NCBI GenBank assembly: GCA_038400315.1
Contig: CP151667.1
Coordinates: forward strand, 5,529,174 to 5,593,173
Length of the DNA stretch: 64,000 nt
DNA from: Isosphaeraceae bacterium EP7
GTDB taxonomy: Bacteria > Planctomycetota > Planctomycetia > Isosphaerales > Isosphaeraceae
Reading direction: 5' to 3'
In this document: piece by piece, positions 43,593 to 58,097 of the stretch
Position numbering within the stretch: the stretch's first letter is position 1
Layout of the letters: every line of letters starts with the position of its first letter
The notes under the pieces: generated by a model
Database searches by the model: none
What the model was told of the DNA's origin: nothing
What the model saw: the letters and a program-made list of their open reading frames with translations, nothing else
Position numbers and translations under genes: made by a program

Positions 43593-43643
43593 GTCCGTTC
43601 CGTCTCTTCTTCCCGAGGCTTGCAGCCTCCTTGTTATCCGCCC

Positions 43644-43701
43644 GACTTGCCCACCGCCGGGGTTTCGCCTGGTAGGGCTCCACCGCGGCCGTGGACAAAT
43701 C
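43644..43701 (-). repeat. Structured RNA element, copy 1
   Basis: Arms 43644-43659 and 43686-43701 pair over 15 of 16 positions on the minus strand (two as G-U), enclosing a conserved apical segment (GGTGGAGCC, AGGCGAAACCCC read on the minus strand). Lies between the SMC-like and lipoprotein genes. Two further copies, at 45.06 and 45.15 kb, have different stem sequences but the same pairing. Confidence 0.75.
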
Positions 43702-43711
43702 TCTTCCTTCA

Positions 43712-45019: not shown

Positions 45020-45057
45020 GTTCCTCTGTTGTCGTTCTTCGTCGTTAATTCGCCCGA

Positions 45058-45115
45058 CTTATCAACCGGAGGGGTTCCGGCCTGGGTGGGCCTCCACCGC
45101 TCCCGTTGATAAGTC
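45058..45115 (-). repeat. Structured RNA element, copy 2
   Basis: Arms 45058-45072 and 45101-45115 pair at 14 of 15 positions, including a perfect 10-bp outer helix (ACTTATCAAC/GTTGATAAGT). The apical part matches copies 1 and 3. 40 bp upstream of the SMC-like start. Confidence 0.75.
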
Positions 45116-45150
45116 TCTTTCCTGCTGCTTCGGCCCGTGCTGGCTCGCCC

Positions 45151-45208
45151 GAGTTGCACACAGGAGGGGTTTCGCCTGGGTGGGCTCCACCGCTCCTGTG
45201 CACAACTC
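45151..45208 (-). repeat. Structured RNA element, copy 3
   Basis: Arms 45151-45166 and 45193-45208 pair at all 16 positions on the minus strand, two as G-U wobbles; on the plus strand those two would be C-A mismatches. That assigns the RNA to the minus strand. Apical part as in copies 1 and 2. Confidence 0.75.
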
Positions 45209-45364
45209 TCTGCCCTGCCTTCGCACCCGGTCCTGATTCTCTTCGGGGTCCGTGCCAGGCCCGAGCAGAGCAGCCGCCGCCAGCCCGTTCTCTCGCCCCT
45301 CGTGTCGGTTCCGCACCGAGCTCGCCCTGTCCTCCCCTCTGCCGGGAGGGAAGAGTTCAGGGGA

Positions 45365-46761: not shown

Positions 46762-46797
46762 GATGCGACCATCTCACGATTATGCTCAAACTGTCAA
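46762..46797 (-). promoter_or_regulatory. Repeated early-type promoter, copy A
   Basis: 36-bp element matching copy B (48443-48478) at ~33 of 36 positions. On the minus strand it begins with TTGACA; a match to a -10 box 17 bases on is weak (AGATGG). It stands 46 bases before the RadC start, almost the same distance as copy B from its gene. Confidence 0.6.
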
Positions 46798-48442: not shown

Positions 48443-48478
48443 GATGCGACCATCTCACGAATCGGCTCAAACTGTCAA
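48443..48478 (-). promoter_or_regulatory. Repeated early-type promoter, copy B
   Basis: 36-bp element near-identical to copy A, with TTGACA on the minus strand, 45 bases before the start at 48398. The shared sequence extends well beyond the hexamers, so an activator or repressor site is probably included. Confidence 0.6.
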
Positions 48479-48489
48479 ACAATTGTTTC

Positions 48490-48669
48490 ACTTTATTTCT
48501 TCCCGGTGAAACTGCTCGGGATTTACGCTGCTAGTCGGAGCCAAGGGTTTCTGATACCACCGGGGCAGGCGTGGCCACGCCGAGAGCGGAGCGGGCAGGT
48601 CGTCGGAATCGGGACCCGCTCCGCACGTCCAAACCGCTCGGGGATTTGCCCGGGCGCCGCACGGCGGCG
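48490..48669 (-). ncRNA. 3' structured segment downstream of the RNA-linked protein gene
   Basis: Non-coding. Contains an 8-bp perfect stem (GGAGCGGG 48588-48595 with CCCGCTCC 48615-48622), a 14-bp perfect palindrome (48568-48581) and a 7-bp stem at the far end. With the 5' structured segment it brackets the gene, as terminal domains bracket the ORF in some ribozyme elements. Confidence 0.45.
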
Positions 48670-49302
48670 TCAATCGAACGGTCGGAGCACCCGCCGCCTG
48701 AGCGGGAGGCACGAGTGCGGGACCGGCTCCAGACGGAGCGGCGCGCGAACACGGTTCGCGAGACGGAGGAGCTCGAACAGTTGCCGCACCACGGGTGCGT
48801 ACGGCTCGACGTCGAGCGACGAGAAGAACCGGCCCAGGGACGCCACGTCCCGCCGCACGGCGGCCTCCATCACGAACGCTTTGAGCAACGCCATCTGACG
48901 ACGGGAGAGCCTCACGGAGGGGTGGAGCCTGCCGTCCCTCCCTCGCTTGCACGAGATCGAATAACCGGCGAAGTAGAACGGGCGACGGCGGAAGTCCCGG
49001 AACGCCTCCTCCTCGAAGAACCGCCCGCTCCCCTTGGTCGCGACGATAACGATGGAGCGCCGGTGCCTGAGGTACTGGACGCTGGCGATCCCGGCCCGCT
49101 TACGGCGGGCACGCTCCCACTTGGAGCACGCGATCCCGTAGCGGGCGATGAGCTTCTCGTCGACTTCGGCCGGGTCCTTGTCGTCCGGGATGACGGAGCT
49201 CGAGTAGAAGTGATAGCCACGGCAGACGTACGCGACGGCGAGCTGCTGGACGAAGCCGCCGACGGAGGTCGCGACGCAACGGTAGGGGCGAACGACGGGC
49301 AC
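48670..49302 (-). CDS. Basic protein of unknown family linked to a large structured RNA
   Basis: 210 residues from GTG 49302 (AGAGGTG just upstream); a TTG start at 49386 would run through predicted hairpins. Landmarks: VAYVCRGYHFY (~17-27), RYGIACSKWERARRKRAGI (~47-65), a beta-rich middle with IVIVATKGSGRFFEEEAF (~72-92), FYFAGYSIS, and a C-terminus with many Arg (LRRRVLRPF). Very basic, with no reverse-transcriptase, HNH, LAGLIDADG or GIY motif. The Arg/Lys clusters suggest RNA binding. It follows ~1 kb of structured non-coding sequence on the same strand. I do not recognise the family. Confidence 0.6.
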   Translation of the reverse strand: MPVVRPYRCVATSVGGFVQQLAVAYVCRGYHFYSSSVIPDDKDPAEVDEKLIARYGIACSKWERARRKRAGIASVQYLRHRRSIVIVATKGSGRFFEEEAFRDFRRRPFYFAGYSISCKRGRDGRLHPSVRLSRRQMALLKAFVMEAAVRRDVASLGRFFSSLDVEPYAPVVRQLFELLRLANRVRAPLRLEPVPHSCLPLRRRVLRPFD

Positions 49303-50335
49303 GGCACCTCTGAAGCCGGTGTGAGTAACGCCCACCGGCAGACGGGACCTCAAAGCGAAACCGGCTCCGCTGTGGAGCACGCTCAAAACCTGTCCAACCT
49401 TCTCGGGCTCAGGAGATCCTCGCTACGATCCCATGTTCCAGTATCGAGTGGCCCCAATACATGGAATGCCGGTCCAACCTCCCTCGCTCTTAAGGTGCTC
49501 GTTCCCGTCAGGGCCCGAGCCATTTAAGCCGCCGTCGCTGTCGTCAGACGTCCCACGGTGGGACCGTCGCCGGGGTGGTGATCGCATCGGACCTTTCGTT
49601 GACCCGGCTCCGCAGAGCCACGCACGCCTCCGCGACTGCCTTGCCGCCTCGGCTCCCTACTCAGTCCGTCTCCCTGTCCGCGCGTTCGTTCCGCTGACCA
49701 GGCGGAAGCCGCCATCGCGGTGCTCCCGCGGACACTCCCGGATTAGGATCGAACGTCACGCATCGAGTCATGTCGCTAGGGGTTGTAGGCCCCGGTCGGC
49801 GTGCTCGTCTCCCCGACTCCCGTCAGGGAGTGGTTTCGACCGTCGGGTCATTTCGGCGCGTCGAACACAGAAATCCGCGCTTACCCCAGCACGCCGATCC
49901 TTCGCGGTTCGGCTCCATCTCTCGTCACGCTCACCAGCTCGGGCTCGCGCCCTTCAAAGGTTGAGCTATTCGCGGCGTCCGCCTTCGCGGACCTCCCCGG
50001 CTCGGTCGTGCCGGAACATGCCATCGCTGGCATGCTGCTCCCCTCGCTTGGTCCAGGTTGAGCGCGGCTTATCTGAGGGCTTCCACCCCGTCCGCCGCGT
50101 CGCGGCTGTGCCGCTCGCCCCCTGGCGTGGATTTGCACCACTTCGCTTGATCCGAGCCCCGAAGGGCCTTTTCTCCGTCGCCCCTGTTCTCGAGCAATTG
50201 GATCGAGGTGCGGTTTTGCTGCTCGCGGACCGCGAACATTTGTCCCGCACAGCTTCCGCCGATCCGGACAAGCGCCTCTCGACGCATCCGGCTCTCTGCG
50301 ATCGCCTCGGCAACGCGAAAGCGTCGCATTTATAA
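49303..50335 (-). ncRNA. Candidate large structured RNA (~1 kb)
   Basis: No convincing ORF on either strand; long ORFs here have shadow-like composition. Perfect or near-perfect hairpins (plus coordinates): 49550-49564, 49606-49619, 49675-49682 with 49727-49734 (8 bp) enclosing 49701-49713, 49779-49793, 49816-49831, 49977-49992, 50017-50034 (7 bp with a GCGA tetraloop on the minus strand), 50102-50114, 50127-50141 and 50310-50327. Unpaired parts are purine-rich on the minus strand, as in folded RNAs. A TTATAAAT box lies at the 5' end. It leads into the basic protein gene at 49302. Confidence 0.55.
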
Positions 50336-52778: not shown

Positions 52779-52827
52779 TTTGTTCCGTACTTCCCGCGTC
52801 AAGGATGACGCGGCGGGGGAGGCAAGG

Positions 52828-53400
52828 ATGCCGCCGCAGCTCTATGAGAACGGGCTGGTCGTCCAGCACCCTCTCGAACAACTCTTCAACGCCAGCGCTT
52901 GGGACATCCTCTCCGCCATCGAACGCGGCTTCCGTGCCCAGGTGGACGTGAAAGGCAAGCTCGCCGAGTGGTTCCTCTACAAAGATCTCGTCGAGCTTCA
53001 GAAACGCGGCGTCGTCGAGGAGGTTCACTGGAGGGATTCGGACGGGCTGCCGGACTTCCCGATCAAGGTCCGCGGGCGAGAGCTTCAGGTCGAGTGCAAG
53101 AACGTACGGAGCGGGGACGCGGTCTTCAAGGACGGCTTCAAGGTCGAGATTCAGAAGACGAGAAATCAAATCGGCGGCGGCCCGGCCCGTGGATACAAGG
53201 CGGACGAATTCGACATCCTCGCGGCCTGCCTCTTCAATCAAACCGGCGTCTGGAAATACCTCTTTTGCGCCTCCGCTAACCTCGAGCGACGCCCGCAACA
53301 CCCCGACTATCTCGTCATCATGCAGAAGGTTCCTCCGAAAGCCGCCGGCCACTGGCGAGAGCACCTCGAAGAGGCCATCGGCGACGTCTTGGGCCCATGA
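52828..53400 (+). CDS. Type II restriction endonuclease (PD-(D/E)XK)
   Basis: 190 residues from ATG 52828 (GGAGG upstream; an upstream ORF start at 52780 lacks one). The catalytic pattern LPDFPIKV (~73-80) and LQVECKN (~86-92) is the PD-x(n)-ExK signature. The stop overlaps the methyltransferase start (ATGA), the typical tight pairing of a type II system. Cleaves unmethylated DNA; recognition sequence unknown. Confidence 0.75.
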
Positions 53401-54404
53401 CCATGAAACCTCTCTACGAAACGCCGCTCGGCAAAGCTTACGTGGCGGACTCGCTCGAGTTCATGCGTTCGATCCCGGACGGTAGCGTCAACCTCGTGAT
53501 GACCTCACCGCCGTACGCCCTTCACTTCAAGAAGGAATATGGGAACAAGGACCAAGGCGAGTACGTCGATTGGTTCTTGCCGTTCGCCGACGAGTTCAAG
53601 CGAATCATCCCGGACGACGGCAGCATCGTGATCGACATCGGCGGTGCGTGGACCCCCGGACAGCCGACCCGGTCGCTCTACCACTTCGAGCTGCTGATCG
53701 CCCTCTGCCGGAAGACGGGGCTCCACCTGGCCCAGGAGTTCTTCTGGTACAACCCCGCGAAGCTCCCGTCGCCCGCGGAGTGGGTCAACGTCCGGAAGAT
53801 CCGCGTCAAGGATTCGGTCGAGTGCGTCTGGTGGCTCTCGAAGACGCCCAACCCAAAGGCCAGCAACACGAAGGTGCTCCAGGAATACAGCGACGACATG
53901 AAGCGGCTGCTCGTCCGGGGCTACAAGCCGAAGACCCGCCCGTCCGGCCACATCATCACGAAGAAATTCAAGGACAACGGCGGCTCGATCCCGGGCAACA
54001 TCATCATCTGCGGCAACAACGACGCGAACGGCCATTACTTGGAGCGATGCAAGCAGATGGGCAAGAAGCCCCATCCCGCCAGGTTCCCGATTCAGCTCCC
54101 CTCGTTCTTCATCCGCTTCCTGACGGACCCGGGTGACATGGTGCTCGACCCCTTCGCGGGGAGCAACACCACCGGCGCGTCCTGCGAGGAAGAGGGCAGG
54201 CGCTGGATCGCCATCGAGCACAACGAGGATTACCTCGACGCCAGCCAGTTCCGGTTCGAGCCGCACGCCGCCGAGACCGCCGTTGTGCCGCTCGTCGCCG
54301 ATGCGGCCATCGAAGCGATAGAGCCCCCAGCCCCCGAGGCGAGGAAACGCGGTCGGCCGAAGAAGGTCGTAGGGAATGGGAACGGGCAGTCGGAGCTTTT
54401 CTAA
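53397..54404 (+). CDS. DNA methyltransferase (N4-cytosine or N6-adenine), partner of the endonuclease
   Basis: 335 residues. Catalytic motif TSPPYAL at residues ~35-41 and SAM-binding [10 protein letters not shown] at ~251-260, that is motif IV before motif I (beta-class order). SPPY is most often seen in m4C enzymes but also occurs in m6A ones. The C-terminus carries an AT-hook-like RKRGRPKK. With the upstream nuclease it makes a two-gene R-M system. Confidence 0.85.
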
Positions 54405-54421
54405 ACGTCGATGGCGGCGGG

Positions 54422-55753
54422 CTAGAGCCCCATCGACTCGATGGCAAACTGCTCGAGGATCCGGCTGCTCGGGTGGTCGGCCAGTGAGACCAGCTTGTTC
54501 ACGAGCGCGATCGGCATCAGCGCGTTGTCGTACATGTCGCACTTCAGCTTGGCGACGTTCTGGAGCAGTAGGGATAAGTTCGGATAGGCCGCGGGCGCCA
54601 GCTTCCAGTTCGCCTCGGTGGTCGGGATCGAGACGACGTGGAGCTGCCCAGTCTCCGTTTTGAAGATCACCTTGTGGCTGTAGTACGTGCTCCGGCCGTA
54701 GGGCTCTTTTGGGTCGGCCTTGCCGGGGATGATGTAGCGGTAGATATATTCGTCGTCGAGTAGAAGGGCAGTCCCGGGCTCCAGCCTCTCGGCAATCTCG
54801 TCGGCGTGCTCGACGAAGCCCCCGCTCTTCTCCAGACCTACCATGTAGATGTTGTGCTTTTTGAGCAGGTGCCGAATCAACTCCCTCATCGGCTCGTGCA
54901 GGTTGGCGGTCTGCCCGAAGTAGGCGAGCGGGCCATCCTTGATCAGCATGATCTGAGACAGGAGTGACGGCTTCGTCCGCAGTATGATGCGGATGAGGTG
55001 GACGAGGAGCATCTGCTCGGTGGCGGTCATCAGGTAAGCCAGCATCCCACCGGCGCCGAGCTCGTCGTCGATCGCCTCGTGGAGGCGGAGGACGTCCGTC
55101 AGGTAGAGCTTCCCCGCACACTCGGGGCAGTCGAAGGTGTGGTCCTTCCTCATCTTCGATCGCTCGAGCGGCACCTGCCTGGCCCCGCAGCCCGGGCAGC
55201 TGGCCAACGGCCACACGGATCGCTTCTCGCCGTATTCCTGGAAGACGAGCCACTTGAGGGTCTCGATCAGGCGGTCATCCGACGGGTTCTTCGCGTAGAA
55301 GTCGTAGACCGACCGGCGGACGGATTGGGTGAGTGTGGCGTCGCCCTTCGTCGTCACGTTCCGCACCGGGATGACCAGCTTCAGCCGCTCGATCCGCTTC
55401 AACTTGGCGATGTCGTCCGGCTCGATGAACGGCTGCAGCCCGATCGCCTCGAGGTCGTTGACCGCGAACTTGAGCACGCCGAACTGGAAGAAGCAGACCG
55501 TGGCGGACGGGAATTTCTTCTGGACGGCAACCTCGGAGTAGCCGCCGTCCACCGCGATGATGTGCTTGATCGGGTTCGTCGCCAGCGGGGGAACCCGGAC
55601 GCAGCGATCGCCGGGGACGTGCACGTCCTCGCCGGGCCTCGGCAGGTCGCAACCGGCCAGGAACGCCTTGACCTCGGCGTCGTTGATCACGTGGGTGTGC
55701 GACGTCTTGCTGGCGAACTCGTAAGGGCGCCCGTTCTTGCTCGAGAATCCCAT
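54422..55753 (-). CDS. nurA: NurA-domain nuclease
   Basis: 443 residues. IIAVDGGY at ~64-71 is the NurA first catalytic motif, and IKDGPL (~271) and LLLDDEYI (~326) fit the later acidic positions. A zinc ribbon (CPGC...CPEC, ~186-213) is inserted. NurA is a 5'-3' nuclease that works with the HerA hexameric translocase on DNA ends; in bacteria such pairs are frequent in defence loci. The HerA gene lies immediately upstream (4-bp gap). Confidence 0.8.
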   Translation of the reverse strand: MGFSSKNGRPYEFASKTSHTHVINDAEVKAFLAGCDLPRPGEDVHVPGDRCVRVPPLATNPIKHIIAVDGGYSEVAVQKKFPSATVCFFQFGVLKFAVNDLEAIGLQPFIEPDDIAKLKRIERLKLVIPVRNVTTKGDATLTQSVRRSVYDFYAKNPSDDRLIETLKWLVFQEYGEKRSVWPLASCPGCGARQVPLERSKMRKDHTFDCPECAGKLYLTDVLRLHEAIDDELGAGGMLAYLMTATEQMLLVHLIRIILRTKPSLLSQIMLIKDGPLAYFGQTANLHEPMRELIRHLLKKHNIYMVGLEKSGGFVEHADEIAERLEPGTALLLDDEYIYRYIIPGKADPKEPYGRSTYYSHKVIFKTETGQLHVVSIPTTEANWKLAPAAYPNLSLLLQNVAKLKCDMYDNALMPIALVNKLVSLADHPSSRILEQFAIESMGL

Positions 55754-55756
55754 GGA

Positions 55757-57781
55757 TCAACCCTCTCCCTTGCCCGAGGAGAACCGGTCGATCTGGACCG
55801 GGACAACGAACGGGTTGGAATAGGTCTTCATGCGGACGAAGCCCTTGTCGTCGCTGGCGCTGAACCTCACCAGCGAGTCCGTGAAGTCGCCGAAGTCGTA
55901 GTACTTCCTGATCTCCCGGGTCTCGTCGTCGTTGTTGAGGTGGGCGATGAACCAGTTCTGGGTGTTCTTGAGGATGTTGCCCCCGATCGAACTCACCTCC
56001 TGGGTGGCGTAGATCAGGCCCAGGTTCAGCTTCGCGCCCTCCTTCGCGATCCGGTTGTAGATCTGGCTCAGGTCCTTGTCCTCCTTCCGCGGGAAGAGGT
56101 TGTGGGCCTCCTCGAAGTAGAACTGAACGAAGTTGTTCGGGAGGTTCTTGATGAATCGCCCCATCGCATTCGCGAAGATCTGGCGGCAGATCCGCTCGGA
56201 ATAGAGGCGCTGAATCTCCGGGTCGCCCTGGGAAAGGTCCACAATGATGATGCGGCCCTTCCTGAGTTCCTCGATGATCTCTTCTTCGAAGGGCTTCCCG
56301 ACCGTCTCAGTGTGGAGCCCGACCAGATCCCTGAGCTTCAGGTAGCCCGAGATCGTTGGGCTTCCGCCTGGCACCTTCTTGCGGGTGAGGAAGATCATCA
56401 TCGCCTTGAGGTCTTCGTCGGCCCACTCGTGACCCTTCTTCCGTTTGTAGTCGGCGAAGAACGGGGCCTCGTAATTGTCCCAGACGGCGCTGAACCAAGT
56501 GGTGGCGTCCTCGAGCGACAGGCCCTTGCTCGGATCGAGGCTCCCGTCGTCGCGCACCAGCTTGTTGACGTCCGCGTTCCCCTGGAATTTCACACGGAAG
56601 TTCGCCGGCGCCTTGAAGCCCGCTCGATAGAGGCAGCATTGGTAGGCGGCCGTTTTCCTCGCCCACCGGGTCATGGCCGAGTGGTCCGATTTGTCCTCGG
56701 GCTCCGCCAGGTCGGCCGAATTGAAGCTCTTGGAGTAATCGGCCGCCACCGTCGCGAGGTGGCTCCGCACGAGCTCGAACCCGGAAAGGGTGTCCTGGTA
56801 GAAGTTGACCTTGAGCACCTTGAAGCCGGGCTTGTCGAGGACGCTGTATCGCGTGACGACCTTCTCATAGATCTCGTAGATCGCCGTGCCTTCGTCCTGC
56901 GTGTTCGGGTTGGCGTACTCGCCGTTGATGTCGAAGATGATCTGGCCCACCGGGTATTCGGGCACGCCGTCCTCCGAGAACGGGTCCAGATTCTCGCCCC
57001 CTCCTTTGACGGCCGCCTTCGCCAACACGGAACCGGCCTGCTCGCTCATGAGGACCGTCGCCTGGATGATCTTCTTGACGGTGTTCGACTTGCCGGTCCG
57101 TGTCATGCCGAACAGGGCCGTGCGCTTGCCCAGGAAGTCGCGGGGGCTCACGAAGACGGGGACGTCCTCGCAGGCCGCCTGGAATCGGCGGGTGGAGGAG
57201 TAGCGGACCTTCCCCAGGCGAATGTCGGTCGGCTTCCCGACGATGTCGCCCTCCCTGAAGTTGACGATCGCCTCGAGCACGTCCCGGTTCGGCTTCACCA
57301 CGCTGTAGTTGTGGGCGCTGTAGAAGTTCTCGACGTCGGCACCGAAGTGGGTCTTGCCGTCGCCGTCCCGATAGAACGTCCCCAGGACCCTGCATTCCAG
57401 GCCGGAGAAGCTGAATTCGTACCTGGTGAAGCTGTCGAGGTTCGTCTGCTTCCCCGCGGTCCTCAGGTTGTCCTTGTAATACTCGACCATCGAGCTGATG
57501 ACGTCGCCGTCGGTCGGCAGTTTCGAGGGCCGCAGGGCTCGCAGGAGCAAGGTCTCCGAAACCGAGTCTTCGTTCTCGTAGTAGGCGAGCAGGAACGTCC
57601 CCTGGGGGATCCCCTGGGCGCGGGCCTTCCACGCGTCGGCCACCAGCAGGTAGGCTCGGTCGTAGTCGACGGAGAAGGGGCGACCCACGAAGATCCCTGT
57701 CTCGAAGTCCCCCTTCGTGGAGCGTCTGAACAGGTCAATGGATGCAATCTTGGCGATCTCGTCGGTCAGCGCCACGCTCAT
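55757..57781 (-). CDS. herA: HerA-type hexameric ATPase/translocase (DUF87)
   Basis: 674 residues from ATG 57781. N-terminal beta-rich HAS-barrel-like region, Walker A GMTRTGKSN (~222-230) and Walker B RIIIVDLSQ (~508-516), with ATQEVSSIGG near the end typical of HerA. It pumps DNA for the adjacent NurA nuclease. Only one nuclease candidate besides NurA (58098-59078) is close by, so this could be a two- or three-gene system. Confidence 0.85.
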   Translation of the reverse strand: MSVALTDEIAKIASIDLFRRSTKGDFETGIFVGRPFSVDYDRAYLLVADAWKARAQGIPQGTFLLAYYENEDSVSETLLLRALRPSKLPTDGDVISSMVEYYKDNLRTAGKQTNLDSFTRYEFSFSGLECRVLGTFYRDGDGKTHFGADVENFYSAHNYSVVKPNRDVLEAIVNFREGDIVGKPTDIRLGKVRYSSTRRFQAACEDVPVFVSPRDFLGKRTALFGMTRTGKSNTVKKIIQATVLMSEQAGSVLAKAAVKGGGENLDPFSEDGVPEYPVGQIIFDINGEYANPNTQDEGTAIYEIYEKVVTRYSVLDKPGFKVLKVNFYQDTLSGFELVRSHLATVAADYSKSFNSADLAEPEDKSDHSAMTRWARKTAAYQCCLYRAGFKAPANFRVKFQGNADVNKLVRDDGSLDPSKGLSLEDATTWFSAVWDNYEAPFFADYKRKKGHEWADEDLKAMMIFLTRKKVPGGSPTISGYLKLRDLVGLHTETVGKPFEEEIIEELRKGRIIIVDLSQGDPEIQRLYSERICRQIFANAMGRFIKNLPNNFVQFYFEEAHNLFPRKEDKDLSQIYNRIAKEGAKLNLGLIYATQEVSSIGGNILKNTQNWFIAHLNNDDETREIRKYYDFGDFTDSLVRFSASDDKGFVRMKTYSNPFVVPVQIDRFSSGKGEG

Positions 57782-58097
57782 CGGGTTTGGTCCCCAGGTC
57801 GGAATTGAACGCCTCAACAGGAATGCGAGGCTTCTGATCGAGCGCTCGGCGTCGAACGCGGTTACCGAAAGACTTTAGGATCGATTCCGGAGCACAAGAT
57901 GGGTTGCTACGTCCAGGTCCCAAGCGAACGGGCAGTTCGTGGACGCGAGTGCAGATGAGTTCCGTGCGCTTCTCGAGCCTCGCAACAGTGCCCGCCGATT
58001 CTCTCGCGCGATCATGGATGCGCGAAGGGCCTGCCGACTCGACGGGTGATTTTAATGAGCGCGGGGCCGCTCGTTCGCGAAGCGGCACGGCGGCGGG
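57782..58097. other. Intergenic 316 bp with direct repeat copy 1
   Basis: No gene seen. Contains one copy (58005-58041) of a 37-bp direct repeat whose partner lies at 59158-59194. Otherwise nothing distinctive. Confidence 0.6.
58005..58041 (+). repeat. 37-bp direct repeat, copy 1
   Basis: Matches 59158-59194 at about 31 of 37 positions; the 5' end is the palindrome TCGCGCGA. Lies ~57 bp beyond the end of the nuclease gene and ~224 bp upstream of the HerA start. Confidence 0.7.

Follow-up and report, generated by a model that had tools for sequence, protein, structure and literature searches.

The RNA of an ordinary group II intron ends with domains 5 and 6 (D5-D6), and maturases stabilize such introns; Prp8, a dead reverse transcriptase (RT) whose partner is a rearranged RNA of group II type, does likewise in the spliceosome. 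Other large structured RNAs of bacteria, such as OLE and GOLLD, have a neighboring protein or a phage context. A circularly permuted (CP) form of the group II ribozyme, formerly T-large RNA, was described by Roth et al. (2021; PMC8637638): its domains run in the order D5-D6-D1-D2-D3-D4, its splice sites are internal and reversed (NU at the 3' site, GGGCG at the 5' site), and back-splicing yields a branched RNA together with a small RNA circle of a predicted 15 to 86 nucleotides (nt). The same report describes an often adjacent gene, acpG, whose product had no assigned function and no known homologues; the orientation of the gene varied, many CP RNAs lacked AcpG, and intron-encoded proteins were never found in or near CP RNAs. 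Our literature search found no other paper on the CP group II/AcpG system. Here we analyze a 64,000-nt stretch (the window) of the planctomycete Isosphaeraceae bacterium EP7, whose minus strand, from about position 50330 to 48670, carries a structured RNA and then a 210-residue, Arg-rich protein. It is very probable, in our view, that this locus consists of a CP group II ribozyme followed by acpG, with predicted back-splicing of the RNA and with AcpG as a reduced maturase. The RNA and protein class is already known; the likely new point of the analysis is the probable descent of AcpG from a group II maturase.

The window RNA has the permuted order: D5-D6, a 3' splice site, a 13-nt spacer, a 5' splice site reading GGGCGA, D1-D4, and finally the AcpG gene (Table 1). 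It shares with the published CP group II ribozyme the domain order, the reversed internal sites, GGGCG, a length of about 0.9 to 1.4 kb, and a nearby AcpG. It departs from a canonical group II intron in that D5-D6 lie 5' of D1, AcpG comes after the RNA, and there is no catalytic RT motif; after D5-D6, about 0.9 kb of conserved RNA continues. At E values up to 1, Rfam gives for the region only matches to two intron models of group II type and, well short of threshold, one to the small RNA sX13. The D6 adenosine at 50203 is unpaired in the 31-sequence consensus, as expected of a branch site. CP group II ribozymes also have a P2 stem-loop and a P2-D2 pseudoknot; a candidate for P2 is a hairpin, GCGACGC-UUUC-GCGUUGC, that by eye lies immediately upstream of D5. 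Positions 49316 to 50310 fold with a minimum free energy of -461.6 kcal/mol (z = -2.69; none of 20 shuffles is as stable). Open reading frames (ORFs) of chance length occur inside the RNA region, e.g., one of 300 amino acids on the plus strand at 49433 to 50335, and conservation tracks the RNA helices instead.

The original prediction for this stretch had been right to place on one strand a large, structured RNA, probably catalytic, and a basic protein dedicated to it; the RNA proves conserved and covarying in homologues. The ORF list and folding bear out its 210-residue, Arg-rich minus-strand ORF (GTG start at 49302; 34 of 210 residues Arg) with about 1 kb of strong structure upstream, and its 7-bp stem with a GCGA tetraloop was located at 50034 to 50017 (CATGCCA-GCGA-TGGCATG), although that hairpin is out of register in the alignment, where the window forms 3 of the 9 homologue pairs. 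It was mistaken in holding that known intron classes do not fit, since the locus is that of a CP group II ribozyme and AcpG; it had overlooked the group II D5-D6 signature at 50296 to 50197 and the degenerate, noncatalytic RT motif C of the protein. Its suggestion of an OLE- or GOLLD-type RNA found no sign in the region, in which Rfam at E values up to 1 gives neither. An undescribed RNA class, as it had supposed, is ruled out: the Rfam check that it proposed returned a known class, group II D5-D6, and the class was published by Roth et al. (2021).

A first pattern pass matched D5 in 36 of 92 AcpG loci; L022 and L027 were excluded, as their pattern-matched D5 is part of an inserted ordinary intron, and the strict D5 pattern comprises 34 loci, the window among them. 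In these, D5 precedes acpG by 1.0 to 1.4 kb on the strand of the gene, and GGGCGA follows D6 in most; in L071, found by a looser pattern, D5 is 3 kb upstream, and about 1.8 kb of other sequence separates the RNA from acpG. A first DNA profile included the window, and a second, built from 33 homologues without it, matches window positions 50295 to 49726 at an E value of 5e-40, the next match in the 64 kb having an E value of 1.2. Alignments of chosen sequences held 31 (D5-D6), 23 (D1-D4), and 25 sequences. Covariation, which the original prediction had named as a check, is strong: compensatory changes occur at 18 of 27 pairs in D5-D6 (31 sequences) and at 180 of 237 pairs in D1-D4 (23 sequences).

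These data bear on whether the RNA could be a broken or rearranged ordinary group II intron, retained by chance. In favor are the ordinary group II character of its D5 and D6, the divergence of the window copy, and the presence of ordinary group II RTs in the class, with 10 of 39 genomes above the family cutoff and 35 of the 39 having some RT-like match at an E value of ≤0.001. However, the permuted order, the splice motifs, the pairing of exon-binding site 1 (EBS1) with intron-binding site 1 (IBS1), and the AcpG neighbor are kept across several phyla, compensatory changes are found throughout, and AcpG is without a catalytic RT site. As judged from the aligned sequences, covariation largely refutes this explanation; together with the conserved order, it led us to reject an ordinary intron relic, which we consider highly improbable.

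Ordinary group II introns are themselves inserted in D5 of some CP RNAs (L043, about 545 to 2949; L059, about 218 to 2641; L022, before 643; and L027, before 136). The 3' junction (..CC(U/G)AC, then the D5 3' strand) falls at the same place of D5 in the four loci, and in L043 and L059 a 5' junction (GUGCG) is present as well, together with an intact ORF for a YADD reverse transcriptase. These junctions suggest that CP RNAs have a homing site in D5.

With the register fixed at the six positions before GGGCGA, 67 of 92 variable positions pair between EBS1 and IBS1, against a mean of 49.9 and a maximum of 63 for shuffled partners; none of 5,000 shuffles reaches 67, a figure that is optimistic because the register was picked after a free search and the sequences are also related. 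That free search, which took the best local match for EBS1, gave no significance, its score being reached by 192 of 1,000 shuffles. On the fixed-register comparison of sequences, the pairing is partner-specific. Circle lengths, parsed in 29 of the 34 loci, are 16 to 55 nt in 28 and 130 nt in L005, probably because the parse picked a GGGCGA further on; for the window, the length was read by eye.

The RNA and AcpG travel together. With the second profile and a search reaching up to 4 kb upstream, 85 of 92 loci have the RNA ahead of acpG in the same orientation at an E value of <1e-10, a count in which 33 of the 92 loci also built the profile and in which L003 and L029 (same sequence) and L073 and L089 (identical) are counted separately. 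This same-strand arrangement differs from that of the published CP group II RNAs, whose acpG orientation varied according to Roth et al. Protein homologues without the upstream RNA, for which the original prediction had advised looking, are rare: among the seven loci without a profile match, L028, L077, and L098 are cut by a contig end (L028 matches at 3e-9 with the first profile), and in L013 a covariance model picks up D5-D6 (E value, 8e-4). A D5-D6 model census of 392 genomes of the phylum (E value of ≤0.001, strict filters, 10 candidates scored per genome) gave a match in 60, of which 9 score at least 59 bits and the other 51 at most 51.2 bits. We took the latter as ordinary group II D5-D6; in G181, both of these lower-scoring matches stand directly behind an RT gene. 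AcpG homologues occur in 8 of the 392 genomes, that of the window included, and in every one of the 8 the RNA precedes the gene at that locus and on its strand, some of these sequences having also built the models. In the ninth genome with a strong RNA match, G278, the contig ends 398 nt after the match. The Calothrix plasmid locus L011 holds two CP-type D5-D6 copies (128 to 229 and 2279 to 2371) before one acpG, each within a 0.5-kb stretch repeated at 93% identity.

The assignment of the protein to AcpG was made with TTHC007 of Thermus thermophilus plasmid pTT8 and its relatives as the reference. BLAST does not connect TTHC007 with the window protein, but profiles do: hhalign with alignment A1 gives a score of 65.8 (E value, 4.5e-9) over 174 columns, whereas the best of 200 column and block shuffles reaches 29.3 and the reversed profile 17.3. 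A larger alignment (A5) scores 43.8 against the TTHC007 profile, with shuffles at most 27.4. This profile comparison identifies the window protein as AcpG, the orphan that Roth et al. (2021) described next to CP group II RNAs. It resembles TTHC007 in being homologous over those 174 columns and in standing beside CP group II RNAs; it differs in having about 210 rather than 260 residues, in being 20 to 23% identical (alignment A4), and in carrying, with its family, a degenerate RT motif C, which is not seen in the Thermus proteins. AcpG homologues were found in 98 genome-contig stretches, of which the best 80 were retained. By record title, these are mostly from planctomycetes, with others from Hydrogenedentes, Acidobacteria, Verrucomicrobia, Thermoleophilia, Thiocystis, Bdellovibrionales, and Omnitrophota. 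Seven plasmid records, from a planctomycete, Calothrix, Leptolyngbya, and Planococcus, also hold AcpG. The main text of Roth et al., leaving aside its supplementary Data S1, makes no mention of planctomycetes, cyanobacteria, acidobacteria, or verrucomicrobia. We found no AcpG relative in 50,697 phage records or in a viral_contigs scan with alignment A2, and these empty scans rule against a phage origin. A second Shine-Dalgarno-like site about 100 nt upstream of acpG was likewise rejected as a general feature, as such a word occurs in the last 150 nt of 26 of 90 loci.

Structure prediction connects AcpG with group II intron maturases. AlphaFold2 models the window protein with a mean predicted local distance difference test (pLDDT) score of 95.0 and a predicted template modeling (pTM) score of 0.88, and a 38%-identical member with scores of 93.7 and 0.85. 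For both models, VIA-align places group II intron RT/maturases first, with Z scores of about 10 over 183 to 196 of 210 residues, where 7 to 8 is the typical best Z for models without a clear match. The best are 8h2h_D (Z, 10.2; 188 residues aligned; root mean square deviation [rmsd], 4.4) and 8t2r_D (Z, 10.1; 183 residues; rmsd, 4.0), followed by 8t2s, 6me0, 7uim, 8fli, and 6ar3 and then by DRT9 RTs and Prp8 (Z, 7.8 to 7.9; 201 to 205 residues); all of the best 50 rows for both models are RT, RNA polymerase, or spliceosome (Prp8) entries. Full-length group II RTs align with 163 to 196 of the 210 AcpG residues, so that the C-terminal three-helix part is included, and AcpG matches the RT chains only from residue 95 to 155 or so onward, which indicates that the N-terminal fingers part is missing. 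The order of elements (a strand at the place of motif A, two helices, the motif C hairpin, strands, and three helices) fits a predicted palm and thumb without fingers; VIA-align gives ranges only, and the element-by-element assignment is our own reading.

Motif searches point the same way. With the A and DD columns masked, RT motif C selects AcpG residues 77 to 88 as the best of 199 windows (score, 15.2; next, 3.6), and the LGF/LGY motif selects residues 108 to 118 as the best of 200 (6.2; next, -0.8), in the correct order relative to motif C. The best joint match begins at Y[LIV]R in 66 of 66 AcpG sequences, though these members are related and do not amount to 66 independent tests. Median joint scores are 23.0 for AcpG (range, 10.4 to 31.3), 7.5 for 97 control ORFs (maximum, 21.1), and 7.7 for reversed AcpG, compared with 39.6 for the 19 RTs from which the motifs were taken; no control ORF reaches the AcpG median, and 42 of the 66 AcpG sequences lie above every control. 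The catalytic pair is lost: DD is found in the motif C region of none of the 66, and YADD is mostly replaced by [H/F/Y]-[G/E/D]-R-[F/T] after an invariant Y-x-R. AcpG is like the group II RT/maturases (8h2h, 8t2r, 6me0, and 6ar3) in predicted fold and in the positions of motif C and LGY, and unlike them in having neither the catalytic Asp pair nor fingers and in being encoded outside D4. As modeled, AcpG is probably a miniature, dead group II maturase.

Several observations weigh against a CP group II ribozyme accompanied by a reduced maturase. On the RNA side, the window sequence is the most divergent of the 23 aligned, forming 104 of 164 nongapped consensus pairs (63%; slid control, 39%) compared with 84 to 96% in the other 22; its predicted 13-nt circle is below the published 15 to 86 nt and the 16 nt or more parsed in its relatives; a search for a sigma-70-type promoter found none; and L061, L069, and L094 have AcpG but no RNA by profile or covariance model anywhere in the locus. 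Neither the RNA profile nor the covariance model detects the Thermus CP RNAs, and the link to them comes from AcpG homology and from motifs read by eye: pTT8 has, in the same order, ..UCUAUCGCAAU, 35 nt, and GGGCGACCCGGACAG, for which the counterparts in the homologues are ..UUCUAUCCGAU and GGGCGACCGGGACAG. From its alignment with the homologues, we nevertheless consider that the window RNA is a real but divergent member of the CP group II class. On the protein side, hhalign of the entire AcpG profile against RTs falls short of significance (6 and 12 of 100 shuffles do as well with 19 full RTs, and 1 and 5 of 100 with a trimmed set that kept 15 of the 19), Foldseek gives no match with an E value below 1e-3 (its top 12 are retron, group II intron, and G2L4 RT entries), Pfam finds no RT or maturase family in the 66 members, a sequence search of solved structures with A5 gives nothing below an E value of 0.17, 24 of the 66 members do not exceed the best control ORF in joint motif score, and Thermus AcpG has no such RT motif. 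The absence of a significant whole-profile, Foldseek, or Pfam match and of motifs in the Thermus protein would also be expected if AcpG were a small, basic protein that binds RNA and has its own ancestry, with a likeness to group II RTs that reflects a common palm-like alpha/beta arrangement. We consider this unlikely, as the best 50 VIA-align rows are all RT, RNA polymerase, or Prp8 entries, headed by full-length group II RTs, the masked motif C and LGF/LGY pick the right windows in the right order, and the Y[LIV]R start common to all 66 members goes with a median joint score that no control ORF attains.

If the RNA reacts as published CP group II ribozymes do, the unpaired D6 adenosine A50203 would attack the 5' splice site before G50183 (50184/50183), and the freed 3' end would then attack the 3' splice site after U50197 (50197/50196). 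The spacer at 50196 to 50184 would leave as a 13-nt RNA circle, and the product would be a branched RNA in which D5-D6 are joined 2'-5' to the D1-D4 arm and the acpG message. Since acpG sits on the D1-D4 arm, its message would be the branched product itself; as gene and ribozyme are read in that order from one strand, back-splicing would convert the gene's own message into a 2'-5' branched form, a possible means of self-control. AcpG, with a predicted palm and thumb from which the catalytic Asp pair has been lost, may bind and stabilize the ribozyme in the manner of a maturase. We see an even chance that AcpG lost its fingers and catalytic site and stayed bound to a reordered ribozyme, as a bacterial parallel to the core of Prp8 and small nuclear RNAs (snRNAs). 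Unlike Prp8, AcpG is bacterial, has 210 residues, and would act on a back-splicing ribozyme.

Table 1. Predicted parts of the CP group II RNA and acpG locus, with positions in the window
Feature	Position	Strand	Basis
D5, catalytic hairpin with AGC, GAGA tetraloop, and 2-nt bulge	50261..50294	minus	RF00029, 41.9 bits; 31-sequence alignment with compensatory changes
D6 with conserved unpaired A (branch-site candidate, 50203)	50197..50258	minus	Rfam; 31-sequence alignment
3' splice site, after ..CCAAT	50197	minus	Alignment of 31 sequences
Spacer between splice sites, predicted 13-nt RNA circle, ending in IBS1 GAACAG	50184..50196	minus	Flanking conserved splice motifs; circle inferred
5' splice site GGGCGA	50178..50183	minus	Kept in homologues; GGGCG in Roth et al. 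(2021)
D1-like domain (approximate)	49739..50177	minus	23-sequence consensus structure; profile match down to 49726
GCGA-tetraloop hairpin of the original prediction, within D1	50017..50034	minus	Homologue hairpin at this place covaries at 9 of 9 pairs
EBS1 GUGUUC in D1 hairpin loop	49863..49868	minus	5 of 6 positions pair with IBS1 GAACAG
D2-like domain (approximate)	49676..49734	minus	23-sequence consensus structure
D3-like domain (approximate; shortened in the window)	49585..49670	minus	23-sequence consensus structure
3' part, D4-like, with gene leader; poorly aligned in the window	49310..49584	minus	23-sequence consensus structure
AcpG-family protein, 210 amino acids, predicted maturase palm and thumb without catalytic site	48670..49302	minus	Profiles, models, and motifs

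Downstream of the gene, the original prediction had counted about 180 bp of strong stems as part of the system, which was not confirmed. In 21 locus pairs compared, similarity ends at the gene end in six (L038/L046, L037/L046, L037/L038, L033/L039, L056/L060, and L032/L044) and continues beyond in seven, for about 120 bp to 2.6 kb. Comparisons of this kind bear on whether the RNA-AcpG unit might move from site to site as a selfish or cargo module, or might be a defense or anti-element device of mobile islands. Six pairs (L037/L038, L037/L046, L038/L046, L042/L055, L033/L039, and L056/L060) share the unit (83 to 96% in five and 79% in one) with no matching upstream sequence, there are the seven plasmid records with AcpG, and the window unit is near genes for a DNA methylase, NurA, and HerA. 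Neighbors among the matches listed (25 of 73 Pfam and 25 of 232 PADLOC families) include restriction enzymes, phage integrases, plasmid replication initiators, HipA, AbiEii, and DpdE-like and ZorD-like proteins, in an uncontrolled scan of 97 of 171 picked ORFs that left out 8 near-duplicate loci. However, four pairs do share upstream sequence (L032/L044, L029/L049, L061/L069, and L065/L075), some similarity boundaries precede the AcpG stop codon, and no transposase, active RT, or integrase is known inside the unit. Because six pairs share the unit without matching upstream sequence and four share upstream sequence too, its horizontal spread is likely on these comparisons; a mobile module or island device in the full sense is a tentative possibility that we consider somewhat doubtful.

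The neighborhood has features of its own. A defense-like island occupies window positions 52780 to 57817, with the methylase at 53397 to 54404, NurA at 54422 to 55753, HerA at 55757 to 57817, and, at 52780 to 53400, a protein with a VECKN motif and no Pfam family that may be a PD-(D/E)xK nuclease; a RadC-like protein, below the curated cutoff, also lies near the unit in the window. A 36-nt repeat (92%) at 46762 to 46797 and 48443 to 48478, which reads TTGACAGTTTGAGC.. on the minus strand, stands upstream of two minus-strand genes and is possibly a shared promoter or operator. In L037, L042, L046, and L055, a conserved TTGAGTA-N~17-TAnnnT marks the left edge of the conserved unit, some 200 nt before D5, and is by its pattern likely a sigma-70 promoter. 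Repeats of about 70 to 80 nt (43639 to 43707, 45048 to 45125, and 45146 to 45214) flank an AAA-domain gene in the window and have the inverted ends TTGYNCAC and GTGNACAA in two of three copies. Downstream of acpG, cassette-like repeats of 66 to 217 bp, with 0.7 to 2.3 kb between copies, are found in L061 (5224/7283), L065 (4683/6960), L075 (5501/6205), and L049 (4447/5241) and may be integron-like.

The large set of same-strand RNA-AcpG units provides comparative data on this class. If AcpG is a dead maturase, this would answer what AcpG is, a question left open by Roth et al. (2021), and would make the cellular role of CP group II ribozymes directly testable. There would then be, beside Prp8, another natural reverse transcriptase turned into the structural partner of a rearranged group II RNA.

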